From positions 1 to 64,000 of the forward strand of contig NZ_CAJXIV010000003.1 of assembly GCF_913054185.1 (NCBI RefSeq): 64,000 nucleotides of DNA, in the 5' to 3' direction. Under the pieces are notes generated by a model, which was given only the letters and a program-made list of their open reading frames with translations, had not been told where the DNA came from and made no database searches. Position 1 is the stretch's first letter. Each line of letters begins with the position of its first letter. Shown piece after piece: positions 46,559 through 58,270 of this stretch. This DNA comes from an uncultured Shimia sp. (GTDB lineage: Bacteria > Pseudomonadota > Alphaproteobacteria > Rhodobacterales > Rhodobacteraceae). A program made the position numbers and the translations under genes.

Positions 46559-47254
46559 ATGAAACTGATTTGGCTTGGACATGGCTCATTTCGCATCGAA
46601 ACCGGCGATCTGGTGTTGCTGATCGACCCCTGGCTCACCGGCAACCCGGTCCTGCCCGAAAACCAACACGAGGCCGCAGTCGCAGGCGGAACGCATCTGA
46701 TCCTGACCCACGCGCATTTTGACCATGTCGCCGATATGTTGCCATTGGCGCGCAAACTGTCCTGCCCGATCGTTGGACAGTACGATTTGATGTCTTACTG
46801 GAATGAACACGAGCATCTAGAGACTGTTGGTTTCAATAAGGGCGGCACAGTCAATCTCAGCGATGATGTGACCCTGACTATGGTGCCAGCCTCACACAGT
46901 TCAACATTTGGCTCTGACGAAGGCCCAAAGGCGGCAGGCTCAGAAGTTGGCTATATTCTGCGCGCCGAAGGCCGCACGATCTACCTTTCCGGTGACACAG
47001 ATATCATGGCCGACATGGATTGGATGGGAGACTACTACAAACCCGACGTGGGCATTCTTTCAGCTGGCGGCCATTTCACTATGGACATGGCGGGCGCAGC
47101 CTATGCCGCCAAACGCTATTTCAATTTCAACACCGTAGTCCCCTGCCACTACAAGACCTTCCCGATTTTGGCGCAATCCGCGGACGTGCTGTCCGCCGGC
47201 CTGCCGGGAGTGGACGTGATCGAGCCAGAAGTGATGCAAGCTATTGAGCTGTAG
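46559..47254 (+). CDS. Metal-dependent hydrolase, MBL fold (UPF0173 type)
   Basis: A 231-residue metallo-beta-lactamase-fold protein. The metal motif HAHFDH is near residue 51 (THAHFDHVADM), with the further ligands in ASHSSTFG, LSGDTDIMADM and VPCHYKTF. UPF0173 members are cytoplasmic hydrolases of unknown substrate. AGGAG precedes the ATG at 46559; the same frame is open for a further 768 nt upstream, but that stretch is antisense to gatA and gatC and is not used. Confidence 0.9.
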   Translation: MKLIWLGHGSFRIETGDLVLLIDPWLTGNPVLPENQHEAAVAGGTHLILTHAHFDHVADMLPLARKLSCPIVGQYDLMSYWNEHEHLETVGFNKGGTVNLSDDVTLTMVPASHSSTFGSDEGPKAAGSEVGYILRAEGRTIYLSGDTDIMADMDWMGDYYKPDVGILSAGGHFTMDMAGAAYAAKRYFNFNTVVPCHYKTFPILAQSADVLSAGLPGVDVIEPEVMQAIEL

Positions 47255-47260
47255 CTGGCG

Positions 47261-47710
47261 TCACCTACGCTCCGCAAAAAACGTCTTGAGCAACGCCTCA
47301 CATTCCTCCGCCGCAAGGCCATCATAGATCTCTGGTACGTGGTGGCTTTGCGGATGTGCAAACACGCGCGGCCCTTGCGCCACGCCGCCGGACTTCGGAT
47401 CAGACGCCCCATAGTACACCCGCGCAATCCGCGCCTGACTGATTGCGCTGGCACACATCGGGCACGGCTCAAGCGTCACGTACAAATCACAGCCAACAAG
47501 CCGCTCACTGCCGACCTTGGCACAAGCCTCTCGCATCGCAAGGATTTCCGCGTGCCCAGTTGGATCGCAGTCTTCCCGTGTCCGGTTGCCTGCTGTTGCC
47601 AGCACAGCCCCATCCGGCCCGACAATCACGGCCCCCACCGGCACCTCTCCCCGCGTCGCGGCAGCGCCGGCTTCCTCAAGCGCAAGATCCATATGGGTTG
47701 TGAACGTCAT
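47261..47710 (-). CDS. tadA: Nucleoside deaminase, TadA-type tRNA adenosine deaminase
   Basis: A 149-residue deaminase. The zinc site is TGHAEILAMREA (His and catalytic Glu) and EPCPMCASAI (two Cys), as in TadA, which converts A34 to inosine in tRNA-Arg. TRGEVPVGAVIV near the start and VYYGASDPKSGGVAQG near 110 are also TadA-like. The start at 47710 gives the expected length; the frame is open further upstream without similarity. The ribosome binding site is weak. It converges on the metallo-hydrolase gene. Confidence 0.9.
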   Translation of the reverse strand: MTFTTHMDLALEEAGAAATRGEVPVGAVIVGPDGAVLATAGNRTREDCDPTGHAEILAMREACAKVGSERLVGCDLYVTLEPCPMCASAISQARIARVYYGASDPKSGGVAQGPRVFAHPQSHHVPEIYDGLAAEECEALLKTFFAERR

Positions 47711-47772
47711 GTTGTATGATTTGCCCTGCCAAGCCCCCTTTCGCAATCCCCGTTTCACAGGTACACGGGGAC

Positions 47773-48651
47773 ATGTCTCAAAAGCCTCCCTCCTCCCGTC
47801 GCCCATCCGCGAAGCCAAACGCGCCCAAATCGCGCCCATCCAAGCCGCGTAGCGCAGCTGCAAAACCGGCATCCGACACGCCCAAACGCGAAGGCGATCG
47901 CATCGCCAAAGTGCTGGCCCGCGCGGGGGTAGCCTCACGCCGTGACGCAGAGCGCATGATCGAAGCAGGGCGCGTATCGGTAAACGGGAGTAAGCTCGAC
48001 AGCCCTGCCCTTAACGTGACGACCAAAGACCGCATCACCGTAGACGGAAAACCGATCGGCGAGCCTGATCCGGAACGCATTTGGCTCTACCACAAGCCAA
48101 CCGGGCTTGTGTCGACAAACCGCGACGAAAAGGGCCGCGAGACCATCTTTGATCACCTGCCTGAAAACCTGCCTCGCGTGATGACTATTGGACGGCTTGA
48201 CCTCAATTCCGAAGGCCTCCTGCTGCTCACCAACGATGGCGACTTGAAGCGTAAGCTGGAGTTGCCAAGCACAGGGTGGCTGCGCAAATATCGCGTGCGA
48301 ATCAACGGTCGCCCAACGGAAGAGACTTTTGCGCCCTTGCGCAAAGGCATCGTGGCGGAGGGAGAACGGTTTCAGCCGATGGAGATCACCTTGGACCGCC
48401 AACAAGGCGCCAACGCCTGGGTGACCATTGGCTTGCGCGAAGGCAAAAACCGCGAAATTCGCCGTGCCATGGAAGCCATCAACCTGACCGTGAACCGTCT
48501 GATCCGTGTGTCTTATGGTCCATTTCAGCTTGGCCAACTTAAATCCGGCGAAGTCGAAGAGGTGCGCCGTCGTGTTGTGCGTGACCAATTGGGCCTCGAA
48601 GGCGCAGTGCCCGAAGAAAAGCGTCGCAAACCTATTCGCCGCCGCAACTAA
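47773..48651 (+). CDS. Pseudouridine synthase, RsuA/RluB family
   Basis: A 292-residue rRNA pseudouridine synthase. A Lys/Arg/Pro/Ser-rich basic leader (about 1-45) is followed by an S4 RNA-binding domain (RIAKVLARAGVASRRDAERM). The catalytic domain has the Asp in GRLDLNSEGLLLLTNDGDL near 141 and NREIRRAMEAINLTVNRLIRV near 230. RluB is more likely than RsuA by its layout, acting on 23S rRNA, but the target is not certain. It is divergent from tadA and lies 115 nt before the stress-like operon. Confidence 0.92.
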   Translation: MSQKPPSSRRPSAKPNAPKSRPSKPRSAAAKPASDTPKREGDRIAKVLARAGVASRRDAERMIEAGRVSVNGSKLDSPALNVTTKDRITVDGKPIGEPDPERIWLYHKPTGLVSTNRDEKGRETIFDHLPENLPRVMTIGRLDLNSEGLLLLTNDGDLKRKLELPSTGWLRKYRVRINGRPTEETFAPLRKGIVAEGERFQPMEITLDRQQGANAWVTIGLREGKNREIRRAMEAINLTVNRLIRVSYGPFQLGQLKSGEVEEVRRRVVRDQLGLEGAVPEEKRRKPIRRRN

Positions 48652-48766
48652 TCAAGTGCGCAGGCTCCCTGCCTCGGCAATGCGCCGCTTTACCAAAACT
48701 TCCCCCTAGCCATCTTGCGGTAGAGTTCTTAGATTTCTCCATAACTTAGCGCAGGGTGGAGCCATT

Positions 48767-48850
48767 ATGTCATCAACCGGTTTGCAGAAGCTGGCCTTCG
48801 GCCTGTTGGTTCTGTTGATCTTCTACGTCTCCTTCACAGGAGGCGGCTGA
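48767..48850 (+). CDS. 27-residue membrane peptide
   Basis: A tiny frame of 27 codons starting with MSSTGLQKLAFG and ending TGGG. A run of hydrophobic residues (about 9-24, including LLVLLIFYVSF) would form a single membrane helix. AGGGTGGA lies six bases before the ATG, a good ribosome binding site. Its TGA overlaps the ATG of the XpaC-like gene (TGATG), so translation of the two is coupled. I cannot name a family; the coding call rests on the ribosome binding site, coupling and hydrophobic helix. Confidence 0.6.
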   Translation: MSSTGLQKLAFGLLVLLIFYVSFTGGG

Positions 48851-49728
48851 TGGCTCAGAAATTTGGTGGGAAATATAGCCCTAGTGGCACACAGACCTCT
48901 GCCAAAGAGGATGGTTTTCGCAATGCTAAGCGCAGCCGCGCTGGGGGCCGGGTCAACCTGCTCTTTATCGCGCCCCTTCCACTGATCTGGAAGGCCTTCA
49001 CATCTGAACCCATCGTGATGGCACAGTATCTGGTGGCACTTGGTACTCTGCTGCTTGCCGCGTGGATGACCCGCGAAGGCATGTTTGCACAAGAGGCCTA
49101 CGACGCGCGCAAAGTGGCCCGCCGTCCCGCCTTGCCCCGCAAACTGCTCGGCTCAGTACTCACGGGGCTCGGCCTCGCTGTCGCCGGTTTTGCAAGCCAT
49201 GGTCTTGTCGGAGCGGGTATCTTTGCCGTTGTTGGCGGCCTATTGCACAGCTTTGCCTTTGGCCTCGACCCGATGTCAGACAAAGGCATGGAAGGCACCA
49301 ACCGGCACCAAACCGACCGCGTTGCCCGCGCTGTGGAAGAAGCCGAAGAGCACCTGCGCGCCATGAGTGATGCCGTGGCCCGCGCCGGCGACCGTAATGT
49401 GGAGCGTCGTGTGGCGGCGTTCCAATCCACCGCCCGCGACCTCTTTCGCACGGTCGAAGAAGACCCACGGGATCTAACCGCAGCGCGTCGCTACCTCGGC
49501 GTTTATTTGTTGGGCGCCAAAGACGCGACCGTGAAATTTGCCGACATCTACAGCCGAACCCAGGACGCGCAGGCCCGTGCCGACTACCTCGCGCTGCTGG
49601 ACGATCTCGAAGAAAACTTCGCCGCCCGCACGCAGAAACTCCTGCTTGAGGATCGTGGCGACCTGACCATCGAAATTGATGTGCTGCGCGAGCGCCTAGA
49701 GCGCGAAGGCCTGCGCCGCGACAGCTGA
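48850..49728 (+). CDS. XpaC-like protein (5-bromo-4-chloroindolyl phosphate hydrolysis family)
   Basis: A 292-residue protein of the XpaC (PF10112-type) family. A basic N-terminus precedes three to four hydrophobic segments (about 36-75 and 98-140). The C-terminal 150 residues are charged helices (RVARAVEEAEEHLRAMSDAV, LDDLEENFAARTQKLL), probably a cytoplasmic coiled region. In B. subtilis xpaC is next to the telA homologue yaaN, and here telA follows after 34 nt. The enzymatic name comes from an old overexpression phenotype, and no catalytic residues are known. Confidence 0.8.
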   Translation: MAQKFGGKYSPSGTQTSAKEDGFRNAKRSRAGGRVNLLFIAPLPLIWKAFTSEPIVMAQYLVALGTLLLAAWMTREGMFAQEAYDARKVARRPALPRKLLGSVLTGLGLAVAGFASHGLVGAGIFAVVGGLLHSFAFGLDPMSDKGMEGTNRHQTDRVARAVEEAEEHLRAMSDAVARAGDRNVERRVAAFQSTARDLFRTVEEDPRDLTAARRYLGVYLLGAKDATVKFADIYSRTQDAQARADYLALLDDLEENFAARTQKLLLEDRGDLTIEIDVLRERLEREGLRRDS

Positions 49729-49762
49729 CAACACATGTGACCTACCGGAAGGGTGGATTTAA

Positions 49763-50959
49763 ATGTCTGAAATCGTAAAACAAAAAGCCGAAGCAGCCTT
49801 GGCGGAAATTACCGAAGCCACCGTTGCGCTTCCCGAACCGGTTGAGGCCAACGCCATTGTGCCTCTTGCCGAAGCGGACGCGCCGGTTTCTGCCGAGATC
49901 ACCAAGCGCATGGCCGAGCTGGACATGACCAATACCAACTCTATTGTGTCTTTTGGCTCCGGTGCTCAGGCAGAACTACAGACAATTTCGCAAGCCATGC
50001 TGCAAGACGTGCGCAACAAAGATGTTGGCCCAGCAGGCGACAGCCTGCGCGACATCGTCACCACCATCCGCGGGTTCTCCGTCTCCGAATTGGACATCCG
50101 CCGCGAGCGCAGCTTTTGGGAGAAACTGTTTGGTAAGGCCGCGCCATTTGCCAAGTTCACCGCCCGTTTTGAAGACGTGCAGGATCAGATCGACCGTGTC
50201 ACCGACGATCTGCTTGATCACGAACACAAACTTCTGAAAGACATCAAATCGCTGGATGTGCTTTACGAGAAAACCCTCGCATTCTACGACGAACTGGCAC
50301 TCTACATTGCAGCCGGAGAGGCGAAGATTGCCGATCTGGATGCCAATGACATCCCCGCCAAAGAGGCTGAAGTTTCTGCCGCAGACGAAAACGCACAGGT
50401 TATGAAGGCCCAAGAGTTGCGCGACCTGCGCGCCGCACGCGATGACCTGGAACGCCGTGTGCACGACCTCAAACTGACCCGTCAGGTCACTATGCAGTCG
50501 CTGCCGTCGATCCGACTGGTTCAGGAAAACGACAAATCTCTGGTCACCAAGATCAACTCGACGTTGGTCAACACCGTGCCACTCTGGGAAACCCAATTGG
50601 CGCAAGCCGTCACCATCCAACGCTCCGCCGAGGCCGCCGCCGCTGTGCGCGATGCCAACGATCTGACCAATGAGCTGCTGACCGCCAACGCCAAAAACCT
50701 GCGTGAAACCAACAGAGCTGTGCGCACCGAGATGGAGCGTGGCGTGTTTGACATAGAGGCTGTAAAAATCGCGAACGCCGAGCTGATTGCCACGATCAAT
50801 GAGTCGTTGCAGATCGCGGATGAAGGCAAAGCCAAGCGTGCCGCCGCGGAGGGTGACATGAAGAAAATGGAAGCTGAACTGCGCGACACATTGGCCTCTG
50901 CCAAAGCCCGCAAGGACGGCCTCGGCGACACAACAGCCACTGCAGTGCCTGCGACGTGA
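49763..50959 (+). CDS. telA: Toxic anion resistance protein TelA family
   Basis: A 398-residue cytoplasmic protein, almost all helical and charged, of the TelA/KlaA family (PF05816). Recognisable parts are SFGSGAQAELQTISQAMLQDV near 55, FWEKLFGKAAPFAKFTARFEDVQ near 118, and VTMQSLPSIRLVQENDKSLVTKI near 245. Homologues protect against tellurite or certain antibiotics in some hosts, but the native role is probably membrane or envelope stress. It overlaps the next gene by 4 nt (GTGA) and follows the xpaC-like gene by 34 nt. No transmembrane helix is seen. Confidence 0.92.
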   Translation: MSEIVKQKAEAALAEITEATVALPEPVEANAIVPLAEADAPVSAEITKRMAELDMTNTNSIVSFGSGAQAELQTISQAMLQDVRNKDVGPAGDSLRDIVTTIRGFSVSELDIRRERSFWEKLFGKAAPFAKFTARFEDVQDQIDRVTDDLLDHEHKLLKDIKSLDVLYEKTLAFYDELALYIAAGEAKIADLDANDIPAKEAEVSAADENAQVMKAQELRDLRAARDDLERRVHDLKLTRQVTMQSLPSIRLVQENDKSLVTKINSTLVNTVPLWETQLAQAVTIQRSAEAAAAVRDANDLTNELLTANAKNLRETNRAVRTEMERGVFDIEAVKIANAELIATINESLQIADEGKAKRAAAEGDMKKMEAELRDTLASAKARKDGLGDTTATAVPAT

Positions 50960-51876
50960 AACGGTTTGCAGGCATAGGTTTGGGGCTGCTGATCACCTTG
51001 GCAGCCTGCGAAGACACCGGCGGCATCACCAAGCCGCCGGTGGCAAAACCAACGCCTGCACCCCCGTCTGAAGCCAGCGCCGCACTGCGCTCTTACTACA
51101 GCAAGGTTCAGGCTGACCTTTTGACGCGCGGATTGCTGCGCACCGACGGCGGCGGCCCAGACACCCCCTTCACACCAGACATCCTTGCCCGCAATTTTGA
51201 ACGTATCGCCTTTTACGATGAGTATAATAGCGGTGGCGGGTTGGAAAGATCCTCTGGTCAAGCGGGTCAGCTACGCCGCTGGAATGGGCCCTTAAAGATA
51301 AATGTCGAATTTGGCCCTTCGGTTCCTGAAGAGCAGCGAGCCAAAGACCGTGCAACTGTGGCCGCCTACGTTTCGCGTTTGGCAAACGCAACCGGCCACG
51401 CCGTTCGCCAAAGCAGCGGCAAGGCAAACTTCCATGTGTTGGTTATGGGCGCGGACGACCGCGATACGGTCAACAGACGCCTCGACAGTTTGTTACCAAA
51501 CGCCTCCCCCAAAACGCGAGCGCTGTTCGCCAATCCACCACGCAATATCTATTGCTTCGTGGTGGCGCTGGCCTCTGACAGCACTCCCAACGTTTACACG
51601 TCCGCCGTCGCCCTTGTACGTGCGGAACACCCTGACCTTTTGCGCAAATCCTGCTTTCACGAAGAGATCGCGCAGGGGCTTGGTTTGGCCAATGACAGCC
51701 CCGAAGCCCGCCCCTCGATCTTCAACGACGACGAGGAGTTTGCCCTCCTCACCACGCATGACGAAAAACTGCTCTCTATGCTCTATGACGACCGGCTTAG
51801 CATCGGCATGAGCGTGGACGACGCCCGCCCTATTGTTTACATTCTGGCCCGCGAGCAGACCGCACAGAACTTCTGA
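50956..51876 (+). CDS. DUF2927 lipoprotein
   Basis: A 306-residue protein starting at a GTG that overlaps the telA stop. The signal peptide ends in a lipobox (TLAAC, Cys18), so it should be lipid-anchored outside the cytoplasm. The DUF2927 domain has LRRWNGPLKINVEFGPSVP near 115 and, near 235, SCFHEEIAQGLGLANDSPEA followed by FNDDEEFALLT. The HEE motif looks like part of a zincin-type metal site but lacks HExxH, so protease activity is only a suggestion. It is the only clearly exported lipoprotein in the operon. Confidence 0.8.
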   Translation: MKRFAGIGLGLLITLAACEDTGGITKPPVAKPTPAPPSEASAALRSYYSKVQADLLTRGLLRTDGGGPDTPFTPDILARNFERIAFYDEYNSGGGLERSSGQAGQLRRWNGPLKINVEFGPSVPEEQRAKDRATVAAYVSRLANATGHAVRQSSGKANFHVLVMGADDRDTVNRRLDSLLPNASPKTRALFANPPRNIYCFVVALASDSTPNVYTSAVALVRAEHPDLLRKSCFHEEIAQGLGLANDSPEARPSIFNDDEEFALLTTHDEKLLSMLYDDRLSIGMSVDDARPIVYILAREQTAQNF

Positions 51877-51912
51877 GCGCCTCCGCGGCCAGCCTTTTGA
51901 AAGGACCACCTC

Positions 51913-53052
51913 ATGGGTATTTTTGATTTCCTCACCGGCGAATTTATCGACGTAATCCATTGGGTGGACGACACCCGCGACACGCTGGTTTTCCGGTTTG
52001 AGCGCGAAGGGCATGAGATCAAATACGGCGCCAAGTTGACCGTACGCGAAGGTCAGGCAGCGGTGTTTGTGCACGAGGGCCAACTGGCCGATGTCTTCAC
52101 GCCCGGTCTCTATATGCTTGAGACCAACAACATGCCGGTGATGACCACGTTGCAACATTGGGACCACGGCTTCAAAAGCCCGTTTAAGTCCGAAATCTAC
52201 TACGTCAACACCACCCGCTTTGCCAACTTGAAGTGGGGCACCAAAAACCCAATTATGGTACGGGACCCCGAATTTGGCCCTGTGCGCCTGCGCGCCTATG
52301 GCACCTACGCCATCCGCGTGGTCGACCCCGCCCGCTTCCTGACAGAGATCGTTGGCACCGATGGCGAGTTCACCATGGACGAGATCAGCTTCCAGATCCG
52401 CAACATCATCGTGCAGGAATTCTCCCGCGTGGTGGCTGGTTCCGGCATTCCGGTTCTGGACATGGCTGCAAACACTGCCGATCTTGGCAAACTGGTCGCC
52501 GCCGAAATCTCCGGCACCATTGCCGAATACGGCCTCGCAATCCCGGAACTCTACATCGAAAATATCTCTCTCCCGCCCGCGGTCGAAGCAGCGATGGACA
52601 AGCGTACCTCCATGGGTATTGTCGGCGATCTGGGCAAATACACCCAGTTCTCCGCCGCCGAAGCCATGACTGCCGCCGCGCAAACGCCAAACTCCGGCAT
52701 GGGCGCTGGTATGGGGATGGGTATGGGCATGGCAATGGCCCAACAGATGGCGCAAACCGGCCCATGGGGTGCAGCTCCAGCCGCCCAAACACCACAAGCC
52801 GCTCCAGCCCCGCAAACCAACGCCGCACCACCTCCGCCCCCGCCGGTCGAACACGTTTGGCACATCGCTGAAAACGGCCAGACCAAAGGCCCCTTCTCCA
52901 AAGCTGCCCTGGGCCGCATGGCCACCGGCGGAGACATCACCCGCGAAACCCACGTCTGGACCGCAGGTCAGGATGGCTGGAAACACGCCGAAGACGTCGC
53001 TGAACTGGCGCAGCTTTTCACCATCCTGCCACCCCCGCCGCCCGGCGCGTAA
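51913..53052 (+). CDS. SPFH-domain protein with C-terminal GYF_2 domain (YdjI-like)
   Basis: A 379-residue protein. Residues 1-240 form the SPFH/YdjI-like domain (MGIFDFLTGEFIDVIHWVDD, VREGQAAVFVHEGQ, PGLYMLETNNMPV, IEYGLAIPEL-like). A Met/Gly-rich stretch (about 255-280) and a Pro/Ala linker lead to a GYF_2 domain (about 312-370, VWHIAENGQTKGPFSKAALG), which usually binds proline-rich peptides. In B. subtilis YdjI is an SPFH protein working with PspA and YdjG/YdjH on membrane stress. AAAGGA precedes the ATG. Confidence 0.9.
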   Translation: MGIFDFLTGEFIDVIHWVDDTRDTLVFRFEREGHEIKYGAKLTVREGQAAVFVHEGQLADVFTPGLYMLETNNMPVMTTLQHWDHGFKSPFKSEIYYVNTTRFANLKWGTKNPIMVRDPEFGPVRLRAYGTYAIRVVDPARFLTEIVGTDGEFTMDEISFQIRNIIVQEFSRVVAGSGIPVLDMAANTADLGKLVAAEISGTIAEYGLAIPELYIENISLPPAVEAAMDKRTSMGIVGDLGKYTQFSAAEAMTAAAQTPNSGMGAGMGMGMGMAMAQQMAQTGPWGAAPAAQTPQAAPAPQTNAAPPPPPPVEHVWHIAENGQTKGPFSKAALGRMATGGDITRETHVWTAGQDGWKHAEDVAELAQLFTILPPPPPGA

Positions 53053-53059
53053 CTCCCTT

Positions 53060-53081
53060 GCCCCGGCTTTCTAGCCGGGGC
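53060..53081 (+). terminator. Hairpin between the SPFH and zinc-ribbon genes
   Basis: A perfect 9-bp stem GCCCCGGCT/AGCCGGGGC with a TTCT loop lies in the 72-nt gap. No T-run follows. It may be a partial terminator or set the ratio between the upstream and downstream genes. Confidence 0.5.
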
Positions 53082-53124
53082 TTCACCTGTTCTTCCCAAG
53101 CCATTTCAAAGCAAGCAGCCTTTC

Positions 53125-54231
53125 ATGTCAGCCACTCCGCCCCCCGCGCCAAAAGAGACCACCCGTTTCCCCTGCGCCCAATGCGGCGCGGACTACCGTT
53201 TCGCGCCCAACGAAGGCAAACTGATCTGCGATCACTGCGGGCACGAAGAAGCCACTGAGCAAGGCGACCGACAAACGGCAATTGCCGAGCTGGATTTCAA
53301 AGCTGCGCTTGCCAAACAGCTCCCAGCCGCCGAAATGGTGGAGGCCCGCACCACCTCCTGCCCCAATTGCGCTGCACATGTTGTGTTTGAAGGCGACATC
53401 CACGCCACCGAATGCCCGTTCTGTGCCACGCCCGTTGTGGTCGATACCGGTACCCACCGCCTGATCAAACCGCGCGCCGTATTGCCGTTTCAAATTGCGG
53501 AAAAAATCGCACATCAAGCCATGAACGATTGGCTGGGTAAACTCTGGTTTGCGCCCAATGGCTTGCAGGAGTACGCGAAAAAGGGCCGCAAAATGGACGG
53601 CGTCTATGTCCCCTATTGGACCTATGATGCCGATACCAAATCCTCCTACATGGGTGAACGTGGCACGATCTATTATGTCACCGAAACCGTCATGGTGGAT
53701 GGCAAACGCGAGCAACGGCAGGTGCAAAAAATCCGCTGGTCGCCTGCGTCTGGCCGCGTCAAACGCTGGTTTGACGATATACTTGTGCTTGGCTCCAAAG
53801 CCTTGCCAAAGAAATACACCGACAACCTGCAGCCTTGGGATCTCTCCGCCCTTGAGCCCTACACGCCCGAGTTCCTCGCAGGCTTTCAAGCCGAAGGCTA
53901 CTCCATTGAACTCGAGCAAGGTTATGACGAGGCCCGCGACCATATGGATCGCGTGATCCGTCGTGACGTGGCCTTTGACATCGGCGGCGACCGCCAGCGC
54001 ATCCACAACATCTCCACTTCGGTTAGCGACGTGACGTTTAAACACATACTGCTGCCGGTCTGGATGGCGGCATATAAGTATCGCGGCACGTCTTATCGCT
54101 TTGTTGTGAATGGACAAACCGGCCGCGTGCAAGGGGAACGCCCCTACTCGAAATGGAAGATCGCCTTTGCGGTTTTGCTTGCCGCTATTGCTGCGGGCGT
54201 GATTGGCTATATCATTGCCCAAAACCAATAA
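53125..54231 (+). CDS. Double zinc-ribbon membrane protein (YdjG-like)
   Basis: A 368-residue protein with two zinc ribbons: CAQC...CDHC (Cys17, 20, 35, 38) and CPNC...CPFC (Cys79, 82, 97, 100). A long middle domain contains YVPYWTYDADTKSSYMGERG and VAFDIGGDRQRIHN, and a single C-terminal helix (last ~20 residues) anchors it in the membrane. This layout resembles B. subtilis YdjG, which helps bring the SPFH protein YdjI to the membrane; here the SPFH gene is directly upstream. Some annotations call such proteins primosomal-like because of the zinc ribbon; there is no helicase motif. Confidence 0.8.
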   Translation: MSATPPPAPKETTRFPCAQCGADYRFAPNEGKLICDHCGHEEATEQGDRQTAIAELDFKAALAKQLPAAEMVEARTTSCPNCAAHVVFEGDIHATECPFCATPVVVDTGTHRLIKPRAVLPFQIAEKIAHQAMNDWLGKLWFAPNGLQEYAKKGRKMDGVYVPYWTYDADTKSSYMGERGTIYYVTETVMVDGKREQRQVQKIRWSPASGRVKRWFDDILVLGSKALPKKYTDNLQPWDLSALEPYTPEFLAGFQAEGYSIELEQGYDEARDHMDRVIRRDVAFDIGGDRQRIHNISTSVSDVTFKHILLPVWMAAYKYRGTSYRFVVNGQTGRVQGERPYSKWKIAFAVLLAAIAAGVIGYIIAQNQ

Positions 54232-54249
54232 TTGTTGGGGAAATCCGAG

Positions 54250-54921
54250 ATGTCTCATCACGCTACGCTGCAAGAGCTTCTGCACACCCGCCATTCTTGC
54301 CGCGCATTCAAATCAGACCCCGTGCCAAAAGATGTGATTACACACATCCTACATGATGCCGGACGAGCCCCATCTTGGTGCAACGCCCAGCCTTGGAAGG
54401 TTATTGTCACTTCGGGCTCTCAGACCGAGGCCTTTCGCGAGGCCACGGCCACAGCCTTTGACAACGGCGCCGCGGCACCGGACTACCCTTTCCCGGACAC
54501 CTACACCGGTGCACATCTTGAACGCCGTCGCACCTGCGGCTTTCAACTTTATGAAGCCGTGGGCATTGGTCGTGGGGACCGAGAAGGCCGCGCCCGTCAA
54601 ATGCGAGAAAACTACACGCTGTTTGGCGCACCACATGTGGCGGTGATCACCTGCCCCAAGGAACTTGGCCCCTACGGCGTGCTCGATTGCGGCGGCTTCA
54701 TCACCGCCTTTTGCCTCTCTGCCAAAGCGCAGGGCATCGGCACGGTCCCACAAGCCGCCTTGTCGCTTTTCTCAGATACAATCCGCACACATTTTGACAT
54801 CCCCGAAGACCGAAACGTCTTGGCTGCCATTTCTTTTGGCCATCCGGATGACGCCGCCAGTATCAACACCTTCCGTACGGATCGCGCAGCGCTGGACGAG
54901 TTTGTCGATTGGCGCGACTGA
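54250..54921 (+). CDS. Nitroreductase family protein
   Basis: A 223-residue FMN-dependent nitroreductase-fold enzyme. The FMN-binding start RHSCRAFKSDPVPKDVITHI and DAGRAPSWCNAQPWKVIVT are present, then GGFITAFCLSAKAQGIGTVP and ISFGHPDD near the end. It follows the zinc-ribbon gene by 18 nt, so it is probably the last gene of the operon. It may reduce quinones, nitro compounds or flavins; its substrate and link to the stress module are unknown. Confidence 0.88.
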   Translation: MSHHATLQELLHTRHSCRAFKSDPVPKDVITHILHDAGRAPSWCNAQPWKVIVTSGSQTEAFREATATAFDNGAAAPDYPFPDTYTGAHLERRRTCGFQLYEAVGIGRGDREGRARQMRENYTLFGAPHVAVITCPKELGPYGVLDCGGFITAFCLSAKAQGIGTVPQAALSLFSDTIRTHFDIPEDRNVLAAISFGHPDDAASINTFRTDRAALDEFVDWRD

Positions 54922-54927
54922 GCCGCT

Positions 54928-55893
54928 TCAGGTCCGCTGCAACACCTGCCCCTTGACGTCACCAGAACTCACATATGGCAGCGCAGTTGGGTGAATGCTC
55001 TCGGAGCGATCCGCACAGACCAGGCGCGGCGAGCGAAACAGGAAATACTTGCCCAGCGACCGCCAGGTCCCAACCATAGGCGCATCCGGATCGGTGACAT
55101 ACCGGTCCCGCCACCCACTTGGCAGGTCAACGCCACACATTGCCAGCCGCTCCAACATCCAGACAAGTGACACATTGGCCAGCGGCCGCGCCGCGTCAAA
55201 GCCGACCAATTGTCCGCCCACATCACTGTGCGCCCCGCGAAACCAGACCTGCTCCACCCGCCCGTCCCAGTCATCGGGACAGCGCCACAGCTCCGGTTCA
55301 AACACCTGCCGCGTCTCATCCAGCGCCAACGCGTGAAACCCGTGCTGCACAACAGGGGCCAGTTGATGATTGTGAAACGCATGACGCCGCTCGGTGATGC
55401 GCCACAACACCGGCACCCGTGCGCCTAACGCCTTCACCGTATCCCAGACGCCAACCATCTCGATTTGCGTTTCCTCATGACAATGCGCCACCGCAAAGGC
55501 CTTGGCCGCTGCACTGTCCGGTGTCAGTTCATAGTGCCGATAGGCCGTACGAATATTTCGTTCTGTGGCACAGTCAGCCCTCAGCAGACCCACCCGGTCA
55601 ATCACCCCAGCCAGCGAGCGCACCGCAAAGGCGCCCCGCGAATAGCCCATCAGGATAATTTTGTCTCCGGGCCGATACCGGCTTGCTAAATAGCCATACG
55701 CCCGCCGAATTTGCCGATTGATACCGCGTCCCATCAGCACATCCAAGGTCTGTCGCCAGGACCGCCATTGCACCCCAGCCTCATAGTAGACCGACACCGC
55801 CGCACCGATCTCACGCAGAAGCATATAAGTTTGCCCGGCGTTGGTTTCCTGCCCCGGCGCAAGCGAGGACATAGTGCCATCCAAAATGATCAC
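54928..55893 (-). CDS. DUF2235 (Tle1-like) alpha/beta hydrolase
   Basis: A 321-residue protein of the DUF2235/Tle1 hydrolase type. The early DGT motif (ILDGTMSSL), the nucleophile elbow LMGYSRGAFAVRSLAG near 85, GVWDTVKALG near 150 with the acid, and WFRGAHSDVGG near 220 with the His form the expected triad. The GTG at 55893 is the only ATG/GTG/TTG start near, but the frame stays open to 55998 and reads plausibly coding (PAGPRRGVVTHV before the GTG), so the true start may use a rare codon upstream. Tle1-type proteins can be secreted phospholipases; no secretion genes are nearby. Confidence 0.8.
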   Translation of the reverse strand: MIILDGTMSSLAPGQETNAGQTYMLLREIGAAVSVYYEAGVQWRSWRQTLDVLMGRGINRQIRRAYGYLASRYRPGDKIILMGYSRGAFAVRSLAGVIDRVGLLRADCATERNIRTAYRHYELTPDSAAAKAFAVAHCHEETQIEMVGVWDTVKALGARVPVLWRITERRHAFHNHQLAPVVQHGFHALALDETRQVFEPELWRCPDDWDGRVEQVWFRGAHSDVGGQLVGFDAARPLANVSLVWMLERLAMCGVDLPSGWRDRYVTDPDAPMVGTWRSLGKYFLFRSPRLVCADRSESIHPTALPYVSSGDVKGQVLQRT

Positions 55894-55972
55894 ATGTGTG
55901 ACAACCCCTCGGCGAGGCCCTGCCGGAGTATGGCTGCTGGTGAACTTACCAGCCAGCCACTCTGATATGCGT

Positions 55973-58270
55973 CTATGCAGCTGTATTTCTGGCCTCTTTC
56001 AACAATTCCCACACGCGATGTGGCGTGAACGGCATGTCCGCCTGGCGCACACCTGCGTCCCACAGTGCATCCTGCACAGCGTTGGCGGCCGCAGCCATCG
56101 CCCCAACGGTGCCCGCCTCGCCACAGCCTTTCATGCCCATGACATTGGCGGTTGAAGGCACCGCCTCGGTGGTGAACCCAATCATCGGCACATCACTGGC
56201 GCGTGGCATCGCGTAATCCATGAAAGTCGCCGTCAACAACTGGCCGTCGTCATCAAACACAACATGCTCCATCAGCGCCTGACCAATGCCCTGCGCCACG
56301 CCGCCATGCACCTGCCCCTCGGCGAGCATCGGATTGATCAGATTGCCAAAATCATCCACCACGGTGTATTTCTCCAACGAAACCTGTCCGGTCTCTGGGT
56401 CCACTTCAACTTCCGCCAAATGCGCCCCATTTGGGAAACTGCGCGCTGGCAAAGTGGTGCGCTCTTCATGCACCATCAAATCTACGCGCCGATCAGTCCG
56501 CGCCATCTCGGCGGCTTCAAGGAAAGTCGGATGTAGGTTAGAGCCTTCCGCCCGGAATTGCTCATCATCAAAGCTCACGTCCGCGGCATCCACGCCCATC
56601 TTCTCTGCAAGATACGGGACAAAGGCTTTAACCATCGTTTCCACGGTTGCCAAAGTGGCGGTGTTTTGCACCGTCACGGACCGCGAGCCCCCGGTCCCGC
56701 CCCCCTGCTTGATGCGGTCACTGTCACCCTGAACCACCTCAATCATCTCGGTTGGGATACCAGTCTGATCGCTCAGGAACTGCGCATAAACCGTCTCGTG
56801 CCCCTGCCCATTGGACTGCGTGCCCACATAGATCGACACGGTGCCATCTTCATTGAACTCCACACGCGCGCTTTCGCTTGGGTCGCCCAAAATACTCTCG
56901 ATGTAGTAACACAGCCCCGCACCACGCAACTTGCCGGCCTTGGCGCTCGCGGCCTTGCGCGCGGCAAACCCTGCCACATCACCAAACTCTTCCACACGGC
57001 TCAGCACCCGATCAAAGTCACCCACGTCATAGGTCTCATCGGTGGCCGACTTATATGGGAACGCCTCTTTCGGAATGAAGTTCCGCCGACGCAGCTCATA
57101 TCCGCTTACGCCCAGCTCCCGCGCTGCCCGATCCATCAACCGCTCCAGCACATAAATCGCCTCCGGCCGCCCAGCGCCGCGATAGGCATCCACAGGTGTG
57201 GTGTTTGTGTAAATGCCGTCCACCTGCAGCCAAGTGGTCTGCACATCATAAACGCCCATCAACACGCGGCTAAACAGCTGCGTCTGGATCGCCTGGGCAA
57301 ACTGCGAGTTATACGCCCCCATATTCGCGACAGACTTCACCCGATAGGCCGTGGCCTTGAGGTTCTCGTCAAACGCCAGTTCCGCCAGCGACACCAGGTC
57401 GCGCCCCGCATTGTCTGACAACATCGACTCGGTGCGATCCGCAATCCACCGCACCGGCTTGCCCAGCATCTTGGCAGCATAAGCCACAACCAGCGGCTCC
57501 TGATAGATCATCGCCTTCATGCCAAATCCGCCGCCGGTGTCCGGGTTGGTCACGCGCACGTCGTCTTCATTCATCTTCAGCACACGCGCGACATTGCTTT
57601 TGGTCCCCCAAACACCCTGGCCGTTGTTCGCCAGATGTAGCCGATCTCCGTCCCATTCAGCATAGGCGCCACGCGGCTCCATGGAGTTCACAATCACCCG
57701 GTTGTCGCCAATCTCAAGGCTCACCACATGCGCCGCCGCGTCAAAGGCTGCTTCGGTTGCAGCTTCGTCACCCAGCCCCCAATCAAACGCGAGGTTCTCT
57801 GGCGCTTCGCCATGCAGTTGCTCGCCACCACGCGATAAAGCCAAATGCGCATCCAGATCGTCATAGTCAAACAGGATCATCTCGGCCGCATCCCGCGCCT
57901 GATCCATGCTTTCTGCGATAATCACAGCAATAGGCTCACCCACGTAGCGCACCCGATCTGCCGCAAGCAAAGGACGCTCCGGTTTGGCGCCTTTGCTACC
58001 GTCGCGATTGTCGACCTGCGTGCCTGGCAAGTTGGCCTCAAGCCCCGCTGCCAACAGGTCCGCCAACGTTAAGACACAAGCCACACCATCCGCCTCACGC
58101 GCGTCCGAAACATCCAGCTCGGTCACAACGCCATGCGCAACCGGGGAGCGCAAAAAATAGGCATGCAGCGCATTTTTGGGCGCAATATCGTCCACGTATT
58201 GGCCTTCGCCGGTCAAAAACCGCGTGTCTTCAACCCGTTTGACCGGCTGGCTTTTCCCAAACTTATCCAT
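55973..58270 (-). CDS. Xanthine oxidase-family molybdopterin subunit, form II CoxL-like
   Basis: A 765-residue molybdenum hydroxylase large subunit. The start FGKSQPVKRVEDTRFLTGEG and the Moco-binding GGGFGMKAMIYQE, TQSNGQGHETVYAQFL and GMKGCGEAGTVGAMAA are typical. The active-site loop is AYRGAGR, the form II signature; true CO dehydrogenases (form I) have AYRCSFR. The small FeS and medium FAD subunits that normally lie next to it are absent: a PLP decarboxylase is upstream and DUF2235 downstream. Its substrate is unknown and CO oxidation is unlikely on this evidence. Confidence 0.9.
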   Translation of the reverse strand: MDKFGKSQPVKRVEDTRFLTGEGQYVDDIAPKNALHAYFLRSPVAHGVVTELDVSDAREADGVACVLTLADLLAAGLEANLPGTQVDNRDGSKGAKPERPLLAADRVRYVGEPIAVIIAESMDQARDAAEMILFDYDDLDAHLALSRGGEQLHGEAPENLAFDWGLGDEAATEAAFDAAAHVVSLEIGDNRVIVNSMEPRGAYAEWDGDRLHLANNGQGVWGTKSNVARVLKMNEDDVRVTNPDTGGGFGMKAMIYQEPLVVAYAAKMLGKPVRWIADRTESMLSDNAGRDLVSLAELAFDENLKATAYRVKSVANMGAYNSQFAQAIQTQLFSRVLMGVYDVQTTWLQVDGIYTNTTPVDAYRGAGRPEAIYVLERLMDRAARELGVSGYELRRRNFIPKEAFPYKSATDETYDVGDFDRVLSRVEEFGDVAGFAARKAASAKAGKLRGAGLCYYIESILGDPSESARVEFNEDGTVSIYVGTQSNGQGHETVYAQFLSDQTGIPTEMIEVVQGDSDRIKQGGGTGGSRSVTVQNTATLATVETMVKAFVPYLAEKMGVDAADVSFDDEQFRAEGSNLHPTFLEAAEMARTDRRVDLMVHEERTTLPARSFPNGAHLAEVEVDPETGQVSLEKYTVVDDFGNLINPMLAEGQVHGGVAQGIGQALMEHVVFDDDGQLLTATFMDYAMPRASDVPMIGFTTEAVPSTANVMGMKGCGEAGTVGAMAAAANAVQDALWDAGVRQADMPFTPHRVWELLKEARNTAA

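Follow-up and report, generated by a model that had tools for sequence, protein, structure and literature searches.

A conserved joining of xpaC-telA with SPFH and zinc-ribbon genes in the family of Shimia, with a lipoprotein of predicted matrixin fold

In Bacillus subtilis, the two-gene unit xpaC-yaaN and the pspA-ydjGHI genes are separate sigma-W units (PMC3498285). YdjI, which is predicted to be soluble and was reported to contain a zinc-finger motif, is required for the formation of PspA foci and in turn requires YdjG and YdjH at the membrane (PMC8581546). The link between YdjI and PspA is repeated in a study of the ESCRT system (PMC10936438), and YdjG has a zinc ribbon (PMC9239133). In Listeria, disruption of the telA gene lmo1967 increased susceptibility 4-fold to nisin and 2-fold to tellurite (as cited in PMC12791056), while the function of the protein is described as not established (PMC12791056). 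Here we describe a block of seven genes, at 48767-54921 on the + strand of a 64,000-nucleotide stretch (contig NZ_CAJXIV010000003.1, positions 1 to 64,000; hereafter the window) from an uncultured Shimia sp. of the Rhodobacteraceae, in which relatives of both units stand together.

The list of open reading frames (ORFs) and their translations confirmed the order membrane peptide, XpaC, TelA, DUF2927 lipoprotein, SPFH/GYF_2 protein, zinc-ribbon protein (ZnR) and nitroreductase. As a first-pass annotation of the window had noted, neighbouring ORFs overlap by 1 nt (peptide/xpaC) and 4 nt (telA/DUF2927) and no gap exceeds 72 nt; the gaps measure 34, 36, 72 and 0 nt. Pfam assigned families to six of the proteins: XpaC/Halogen_Hydrol (PF10112; 2.7e-28, 99.7 bits against a curated cut-off of 29.8), TelA (PF05816; 4.4e-105, 351.9 bits against a curated 30), DUF2927 (PF11150; 2.2e-60, 204.7 bits against a curated 26.2), Band_7_1 over its full length, 1-211 of 211 (PF13421; 1.4e-100, 335.6 bits against a cut-off of 24), followed in the same protein by GYF_2 (PF14237; 1e-20, 73.7 bits against a curated 25.8), Zn_ribbon_RRN7 (PF11781; 4.8e-10) and Nitroreductase (PF00881; 1e-27). 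The 27-residue peptide had no Pfam match. TelA has a single match in the whole assembly and Band_7_1 a single match at E <= 0.001, both at this locus. The block resembles pspA-ydjGHI in having a YdjI-type Band_7_1 SPFH gene beside that of a zinc-ribbon membrane protein and in the recruitment to the membrane that we propose below; it differs in the lack of PspA, in the GYF_2 domain and prolines of the SPFH tail, and in being joined to xpaC-telA and a lipoprotein gene. The likeness of ZnR to YdjG is one of architecture only. Compared with xpaC-yaaN of B. subtilis and Listeria, the families and the gene order are the same, whereas here the membrane peptide precedes the pair and DUF2927, SPFH and ZnR follow it.

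Conservation was surveyed in the best 80 of 583 TelA relatives, near relatives by design, and in even samples of 199 genomes of the family, 192 Alphaproteobacteria and, separately, the phylum; in the family and phylum samples SPFH was scored as present at Band_7_1 E <= 1e-15. The nearest TelA relatives belong to Shimia species (97, 95 and 91% identity). TelA is followed by DUF2927 and SPFH in all 80 best loci, accompanied by xpaC in 79 (the 80th contig is cut), znr in 73 and the nitroreductase gene in 51, some of the misses reflecting cut contigs; the ORFs aligned from these loci comprised 74 xpaC, 80 telA, 80 DUF2927, 76 spfh, 71 znr and 51 nitroreductase sequences. Among the 199 family genomes, TelA was found in 173 and Band_7_1 in 171; both were present in 171, TelA alone in two, SPFH alone in none and neither in 26, a few unlisted negatives in this tally being deduced from totals and row order. 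The two TelA-only genomes are G595 and G604, and in the latter a contig edge falls just after DUF2927. Positions of TelA were listed for 150 genomes, and for the 130 SPFH positions with a listed TelA position, SPFH lies at most 5 kb downstream of TelA on the same strand in 124. The six exceptions comprise a contig break (G537), a split locus with xpaC-telA about 37 kb from DUF2927-SPFH-ZnR (G483, C1:219484-258093, broken between telA and DUF2927), and four genomes (G521, G563, G538 and G540) that carry xpaC-telA-DUF2927 at one place and SPFH-ZnR at another. Both modules are thus retained even when unlinked, which favours a functional tie between them. In the phylum sample, 22 of 23 family genomes hold TelA and SPFH on a single contig within 3 kb, and a Paracoccus ferrooxidans plasmid carries TelA-DUF2927-SPFH-ZnR. 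The block belongs to a conserved two-module set whose families are known and whose arrangement is new, and the joining of the two units that the first-pass annotation pointed out recurs in most of the family. Outside the family, a strong, near-full Band_7_1 match was found in six of the 192 Alphaproteobacteria, four of which (from three families) have an xpaC-telA-spfh-znr core, and two have TelA and SPFH apart.

The smallest member of the set is a genuine gene and no chance ORF. A hydrophobic ORF of 24-30 residues ends at the start of xpaC in 67 of 77 loci, compared with 0/79, 0/80 and 0/73 at the control positions before telA, spfh and znr, and among 31 peptide copies of the same length the third codon position varies most (417 versus 263 and 141). 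Small hydrophobic ORFs lie near xpaC, more loosely placed, in two of the four non-family loci.

The SPFH proteins have a characteristic C-terminal part, with at least PPP before GYF_2 in 76 of 77 and after it in all 77. Seven distant SPFH-GYF proteins (L025-L028, L030 and those of Vibrio and Tsukamurella; six scanned with Pfam, L028 not) also have PPP after the GYF domain, whereas none of the six GYF-less SPFH proteins compared ends in PPP. Of these controls, four were scanned with Pfam and carry an HTH (Comamonas), SHOCT-like matches below the cut-off (Novosphingobium and G010) or a zinc ribbon (Butyrivibrio), and those of Burkholderia and Gemmatirosa (L189, L192) were judged by eye. Since the tail occurs in all the GYF proteins compared and in none of the six GYF-less ones, domain and tail go together. 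Among the other proteins, TelA has no PPP or PPG, XpaC has PPP in 5/75, and PP occurs in the N-terminal region of ZnR in 31/72. The first-pass annotation had offered two ligands for the GYF domain, the proline-rich linker of the DUF2927 lipoprotein and the SPFH protein's own linker. The former is unlikely, because the two partners should sit on opposite sides of the membrane: the lipoprotein linker follows the lipobox and should be periplasmic, and the GYF domain should be cytoplasmic, the window protein showing no hydrophobic segment by hydropathy and YdjI being predicted soluble (PMC8581546). The latter fares better: the conserved proline tails of the SPFH protein itself would be the better ligand and make for a simpler proposal. 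Residues 312-374 of the SPFH protein weakly match one entry of the Protein Data Bank (PDB), 7z3c, an 'adventurous gliding motility protein X' (E 0.011). Two of the distant SPFH-GYF_2 genes lie on plasmids. In Tsukamurella tyrosinosolvens (L190, 3001-5408), the actinobacterial protein ends in PPPLPPRS and the product of the next gene has a weak zinc-ribbon match; in Vibrio coralliilyticus (L123, 3093-8092), a gene for a TIR-domain protein lies about 3 kb away on the opposite strand.

The DUF2927 lipoprotein is predicted to have a matrixin/metzincin fold. Its AlphaFold2 model (pLDDT 90.3, pTM 0.85) was built from alignment A1, which holds 60 of 81 DUF2927 sequences (the window protein and 59 relatives). 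The best VIA-align match is MMP7 (2y6d; Z 11.3, rmsd 2.8 over 147 residues), and all 50 matches listed are matrixins; most of the 50 listed by Foldseek are matrix metalloproteases, the rest being other metzincins apart from a single unrelated chain (6pv4_D). The link to matrixins is drawn from this predicted fold and from two family members with HExxH. A link at the level of sequence was considered and rejected, profile and phmmer searches of PDB sequences giving chance-level matches, two of them by phmmer. Compared with matrixins such as matrix metalloproteases and karilysin, the DUF2927 protein of the operon shares the predicted fold and the catalytic Glu column, but has EExxQxxGxxND for HExxHxxGxxH, is a lipoprotein and comes from a bacterial operon of envelope type. 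The zinc motif is absent from the window protein and its operon relatives, which have EExxQxxGxxND in the columns whose register is set by the two HExxH members, so that all three zinc His ligand positions are substituted. All 60 A1 sequences share E236, E237, Q240, G243 and D247, each of which reaches at least 95% in all 81; N246 is not invariant in A1, H235 immediately precedes the motif, and the alignment is gapped at the position of the Met-turn. Zinc binding has thus probably been lost in the operon proteins. Of 22 DUF2927 ORFs found elsewhere, 18 have EExxQ in the same columns, two have HExxHxxGxxGH and two have neither. The two with the intact motif, L141 (G162:C52:45200-47800) and L147 (G179:C1:838500-841100), are possibly active zinc peptidases, and a second DUF2927 protein of the genome from which the window comes (a 456-residue ORF, G000:C36:27587-28186; L042 7423-8793) has EExxQ too.

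We propose that these genes encode a two-module inner-membrane envelope-stress system, a tentative reading to which we give a probability of about 0.45. We infer co-transcription as an operon, complex formation, the role in stress, the task of each protein, the periplasmic location of the lipoprotein and the docking of GYF domains on their own proteins. One module would consist of the 27-residue peptide, XpaC, TelA and usually the DUF2927 lipoprotein, the other of the SPFH-GYF and zinc-ribbon membrane proteins, the two having been joined into one operon in Alphaproteobacteria. Much as YdjG and YdjH do with YdjI, ZnR and XpaC may tether the SPFH protein, as a cytoplasmic scaffold, to the inner membrane, with TelA in the client role that PspA fills in B. 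subtilis. GYF domains could grip proline tracts of their own SPFH subunit or of an adjacent one, which would lock or gate the scaffold, and the lipoprotein, matrixin-like without the zinc histidines, might bind or sense without proteolysis, as an arm at the outer leaflet. The predicted topology fits the inner-membrane assembly with a periplasmic arm put forward in the first-pass annotation. In ZnR, the cysteines C17/C20/C35/C38 and C79/C82/C97/C100 are invariant in the 55 sequences of alignment A2; its model reached pLDDT 79.4 (54.0-58.0 for the other four models) and had no credible structure match in the PDB, where searches with the TelA and ZnR sequences returned nothing usable. The lack of pspA from the block and the separateness of the B. 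subtilis units, both remarked on earlier, are confirmed: Pfam finds no PspA domain in the seven proteins, and the one PspA match of the genome lies on another contig (G000:C123:2866-3366, L041) and contains an in-frame TAG, which points to a pseudogene or a sequencing error. Of 100 family genomes, 21 have a PspA match above the cut-off, and the operon is therefore independent of it. TelA was also considered as a hidden relative of PspA and rejected, hhalign giving probabilities of 0.6% for TelA and 0.2-0.6% for TelA, XpaC, SPFH and ZnR against 17 PspA sequences.

Several observations weigh against the proposed stress system. Because TelA has no sequence relation to PspA, its client role is an analogy only. 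No DUF2927 gene stands in the operon of G352 or G644, whose cores are otherwise intact, probably none in that of G450 (a 249-nt gap), and none in the four non-family alphaproteobacterial core loci. The cores of G352 and G644 and the split loci show the modules with or without DUF2927, and so it looks like an add-on to the set. The lipoprotein and the nitroreductase, both counted as members in the first-pass annotation, are present here and neither is universal. In many loci extra genes break up the block. Outside the family, the phylum sample has Band_7_1 in 19 genomes, six of them also with TelA, and TelA adjacent to SPFH in 0 of the 19. In G255, whose assembly has 230 contigs, TelA and SPFH are on separate contigs and may still be neighbours. 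The placement of the proteins is also less than firm. The hydropathy threshold misses the signal peptide of the lipoprotein as well, and of the 77 DUF2927 sequences (out of 81) that have a lipobox, 33 carry D after its Cys and 20 carry E, only 53/77 together. In Escherichia coli, D or E after the lipobox Cys retains lipoproteins in the inner membrane. As for the fold, the best Foldseek match is weak (E 7.2e-3, probability 0.99), and the A1 profile returned three rows against PDB sequences, all at chance level and none of them a matrixin. The open-access literature searched gave no data on the expression, interactions or phenotype of any alphaproteobacterial member. It also held nothing on DUF2927 and nothing on TelA with SPFH in an operon, and within that scope the earlier suggestion of an undescribed module stands.

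The alternative that survives best is that two independent stress modules share only a promoter and respond to the same condition without a joint complex. Each module does occur on its own: xpaC-yaaN on a B. subtilis plasmid, with no SPFH/zinc-ribbon pair in the stretch read; SPFH with a zinc-ribbon gene and no nearby TelA in G128 and on a Comamonas plasmid, where the zinc ribbon is of the TFIIB type; and SPFH with a protein of weak zinc-finger match on the Vibrio plasmid, the xpaC-telA pair being absent from the Comamonas and Vibrio stretches read. The modules also occupy separate places within the family. However, the near-perfect joint presence and absence (171/2/0/26), maintained in the four unlinked genomes, exceeds what a shared promoter would need, and we regard this alternative as rather unlikely.

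Handling of a toxic oxyanion or metal, with the nitroreductase as reductant, appears improbable. It would agree with the annotation of plasmid TelA/KlaB as tellurium or toxic-anion resistance, with the zinc ribbons and with the recurrence of the nitroreductase (51/80 loci) and of a b561-like ORF (16/80 loci), but nitroreductase and cytochrome lie outside the core. The TelA family is common to this block, to Ter/YceGH-type clusters and to RK2 klaABC (we take TelA to be KlaB), and an XpaC-like gene lies near TelA in other Alphaproteobacteria too; unlike those clusters, the block has no VWA partner, and Pfam finds no TerB, TerC or TerD domain in its seven proteins. Moreover, the effect of the Listeria disruption was stronger for nisin than for tellurite. 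The b561-like membrane protein is the largest recurring insert by BLAST clustering (17 ORFs in 16/80 loci, in the spfh-znr gap), and the only such ORF scanned, L110 13610-14137, matches cytochrome b561 in Pfam. The other insert clusters comprise five minus-strand ORFs resembling non-genes and six pairs; of ten inserted ORFs scanned with Pfam, seven have matches, each to a different family or set, and the other three have none. One alphaproteobacterial locus (L036, 6898-11563) carries telA, a gene for a VWA/solute-binding-like protein, an XpaC-like gene and a gene for a 372-residue protein without Pfam match.

Quite improbable, too, is that the lipoprotein acts as an envelope peptidase in which Glu, Gln and Asp hold another metal and Glu237 is the general base. 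The retained catalytic Glu column and the invariance of E236, Q240 and D247 in A1 would suit such an enzyme, and because 2/22 other ORFs keep the full zinc motif, the DUF2927 ancestor may have been a peptidase. Nevertheless, all three His ligands are replaced, and we know of no metzincin peptidase with Glu/Gln/Asp metal ligands. An anti-phage or conflict system, to which the TIR-domain gene near the Vibrio SPFH-GYF gene could point, is very improbable: PADLOC reported 0 families for the six proteins scanned (the 27-residue peptide was not among them), presence in 171/199 family genomes is unlike most defence islands, and viral contigs yielded no close SPFH relative in a single-sequence query.

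Table 1. Features of the block, in positions of the window
Feature	Position	Strand	Basis and remarks
27-residue membrane peptide, single-pass	48767..48850	+	1-nt overlap with xpaC; equivalents in 67/77 relatives
XpaC (PF10112)	48850..49728	+	Hydrophobic segments ~55-73, 99-117, 119-137; PF10112 over residues 100-279
TelA/YaaN-type protein (PF05816)	49763..50959	+	Pfam; no hydrophobic segment above threshold
DUF2927 lipoprotein, lipobox LAAC-E, predicted matrixin fold	50956..51876	+	Pfam, model, structure comparison
Codons for HEEIAQGLGLAND, residues 235-247, EExxQxxGxxND replacing HExxHxxGxxGH	51658..51696	+	Alignment
SPFH protein, Band_7_1 at residues 26-236, GYF_2 at C-terminus	51913..53052	+	Pfam
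PPPPPP tract immediately N-terminal of GYF_2	52828..52845	+	At least PPP in 76/77
GYF_2 domain, residues 316-365	52858..53007	+	Pfam
C-terminal proline tract, protein end LPPPPPGA	53029..53043	+	PPP within last 15 residues, 77/77
GC hairpin of 9 bp in the spfh-znr gap, lacking a T-run	53060..53081		Not generally conserved
Double zinc-ribbon membrane protein (ZnR), C-terminal hydrophobic helix ~346-364	53125..54231	+	Pfam, alignment, hydropathy
Nitroreductase-family protein, peripheral member	54232..54921	+	Pfam; 51/80 loci

Translation of the nitroreductase gene may begin at ATG 54250 instead of TTG 54232, leaving a gap of 18 nt (Table 1). The hairpin between spfh and znr was considered as a conserved terminator and rejected: it has no T-run, and a hairpin of at least 7 bp occurs at that place in 9/76 relatives (shuffle expectation 1.9). 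Promoter-like (3 versus a shuffle mean of 2.2) and terminator-like (11 versus 9.2) counts show no clear excess, and Rfam has no match within 47000-56000. An RNA pseudouridine synthase gene (47716-48651, +) lies 115 nt upstream of the block and has a relative in 67/80 loci. On the other side, a gene for a protein with a Tle1-like phospholipase domain (PF09994; 54928-55893, - strand) converges on the operon, with 6 nt between the ORFs.

A bolder form of the proposed stress system is a trans-envelope SPFH/TelA machine, in which a Glu/Gln/Asp-swapped metzincin would act as a non-proteolytic periplasmic sensor and GYF domains would clasp the proline tails of an SPFH ring and so gate the scaffold. 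We consider it possible, though on the doubtful side. If true, DUF2927 as a whole would have intact zinc peptidases at one end and inactive or metal-switched forms at the other, and bacterial SPFH scaffolds in general, between Proteobacteria and Actinomycetota, would use a latch of GYF domain and tail. For DUF2927 there is now a predicted fold and a hypothesis for its active site, and the proline tails are a likely ligand for a bacterial GYF_2 domain. The gene set, present in 171 of the 199 genomes sampled, belongs to a major marine family that has genetically tractable laboratory strains. TelA and XpaC are widespread and named for tellurite and a dye substrate; a tie to an SPFH scaffold of the PspA-recruiting kind gives them a testable partner.

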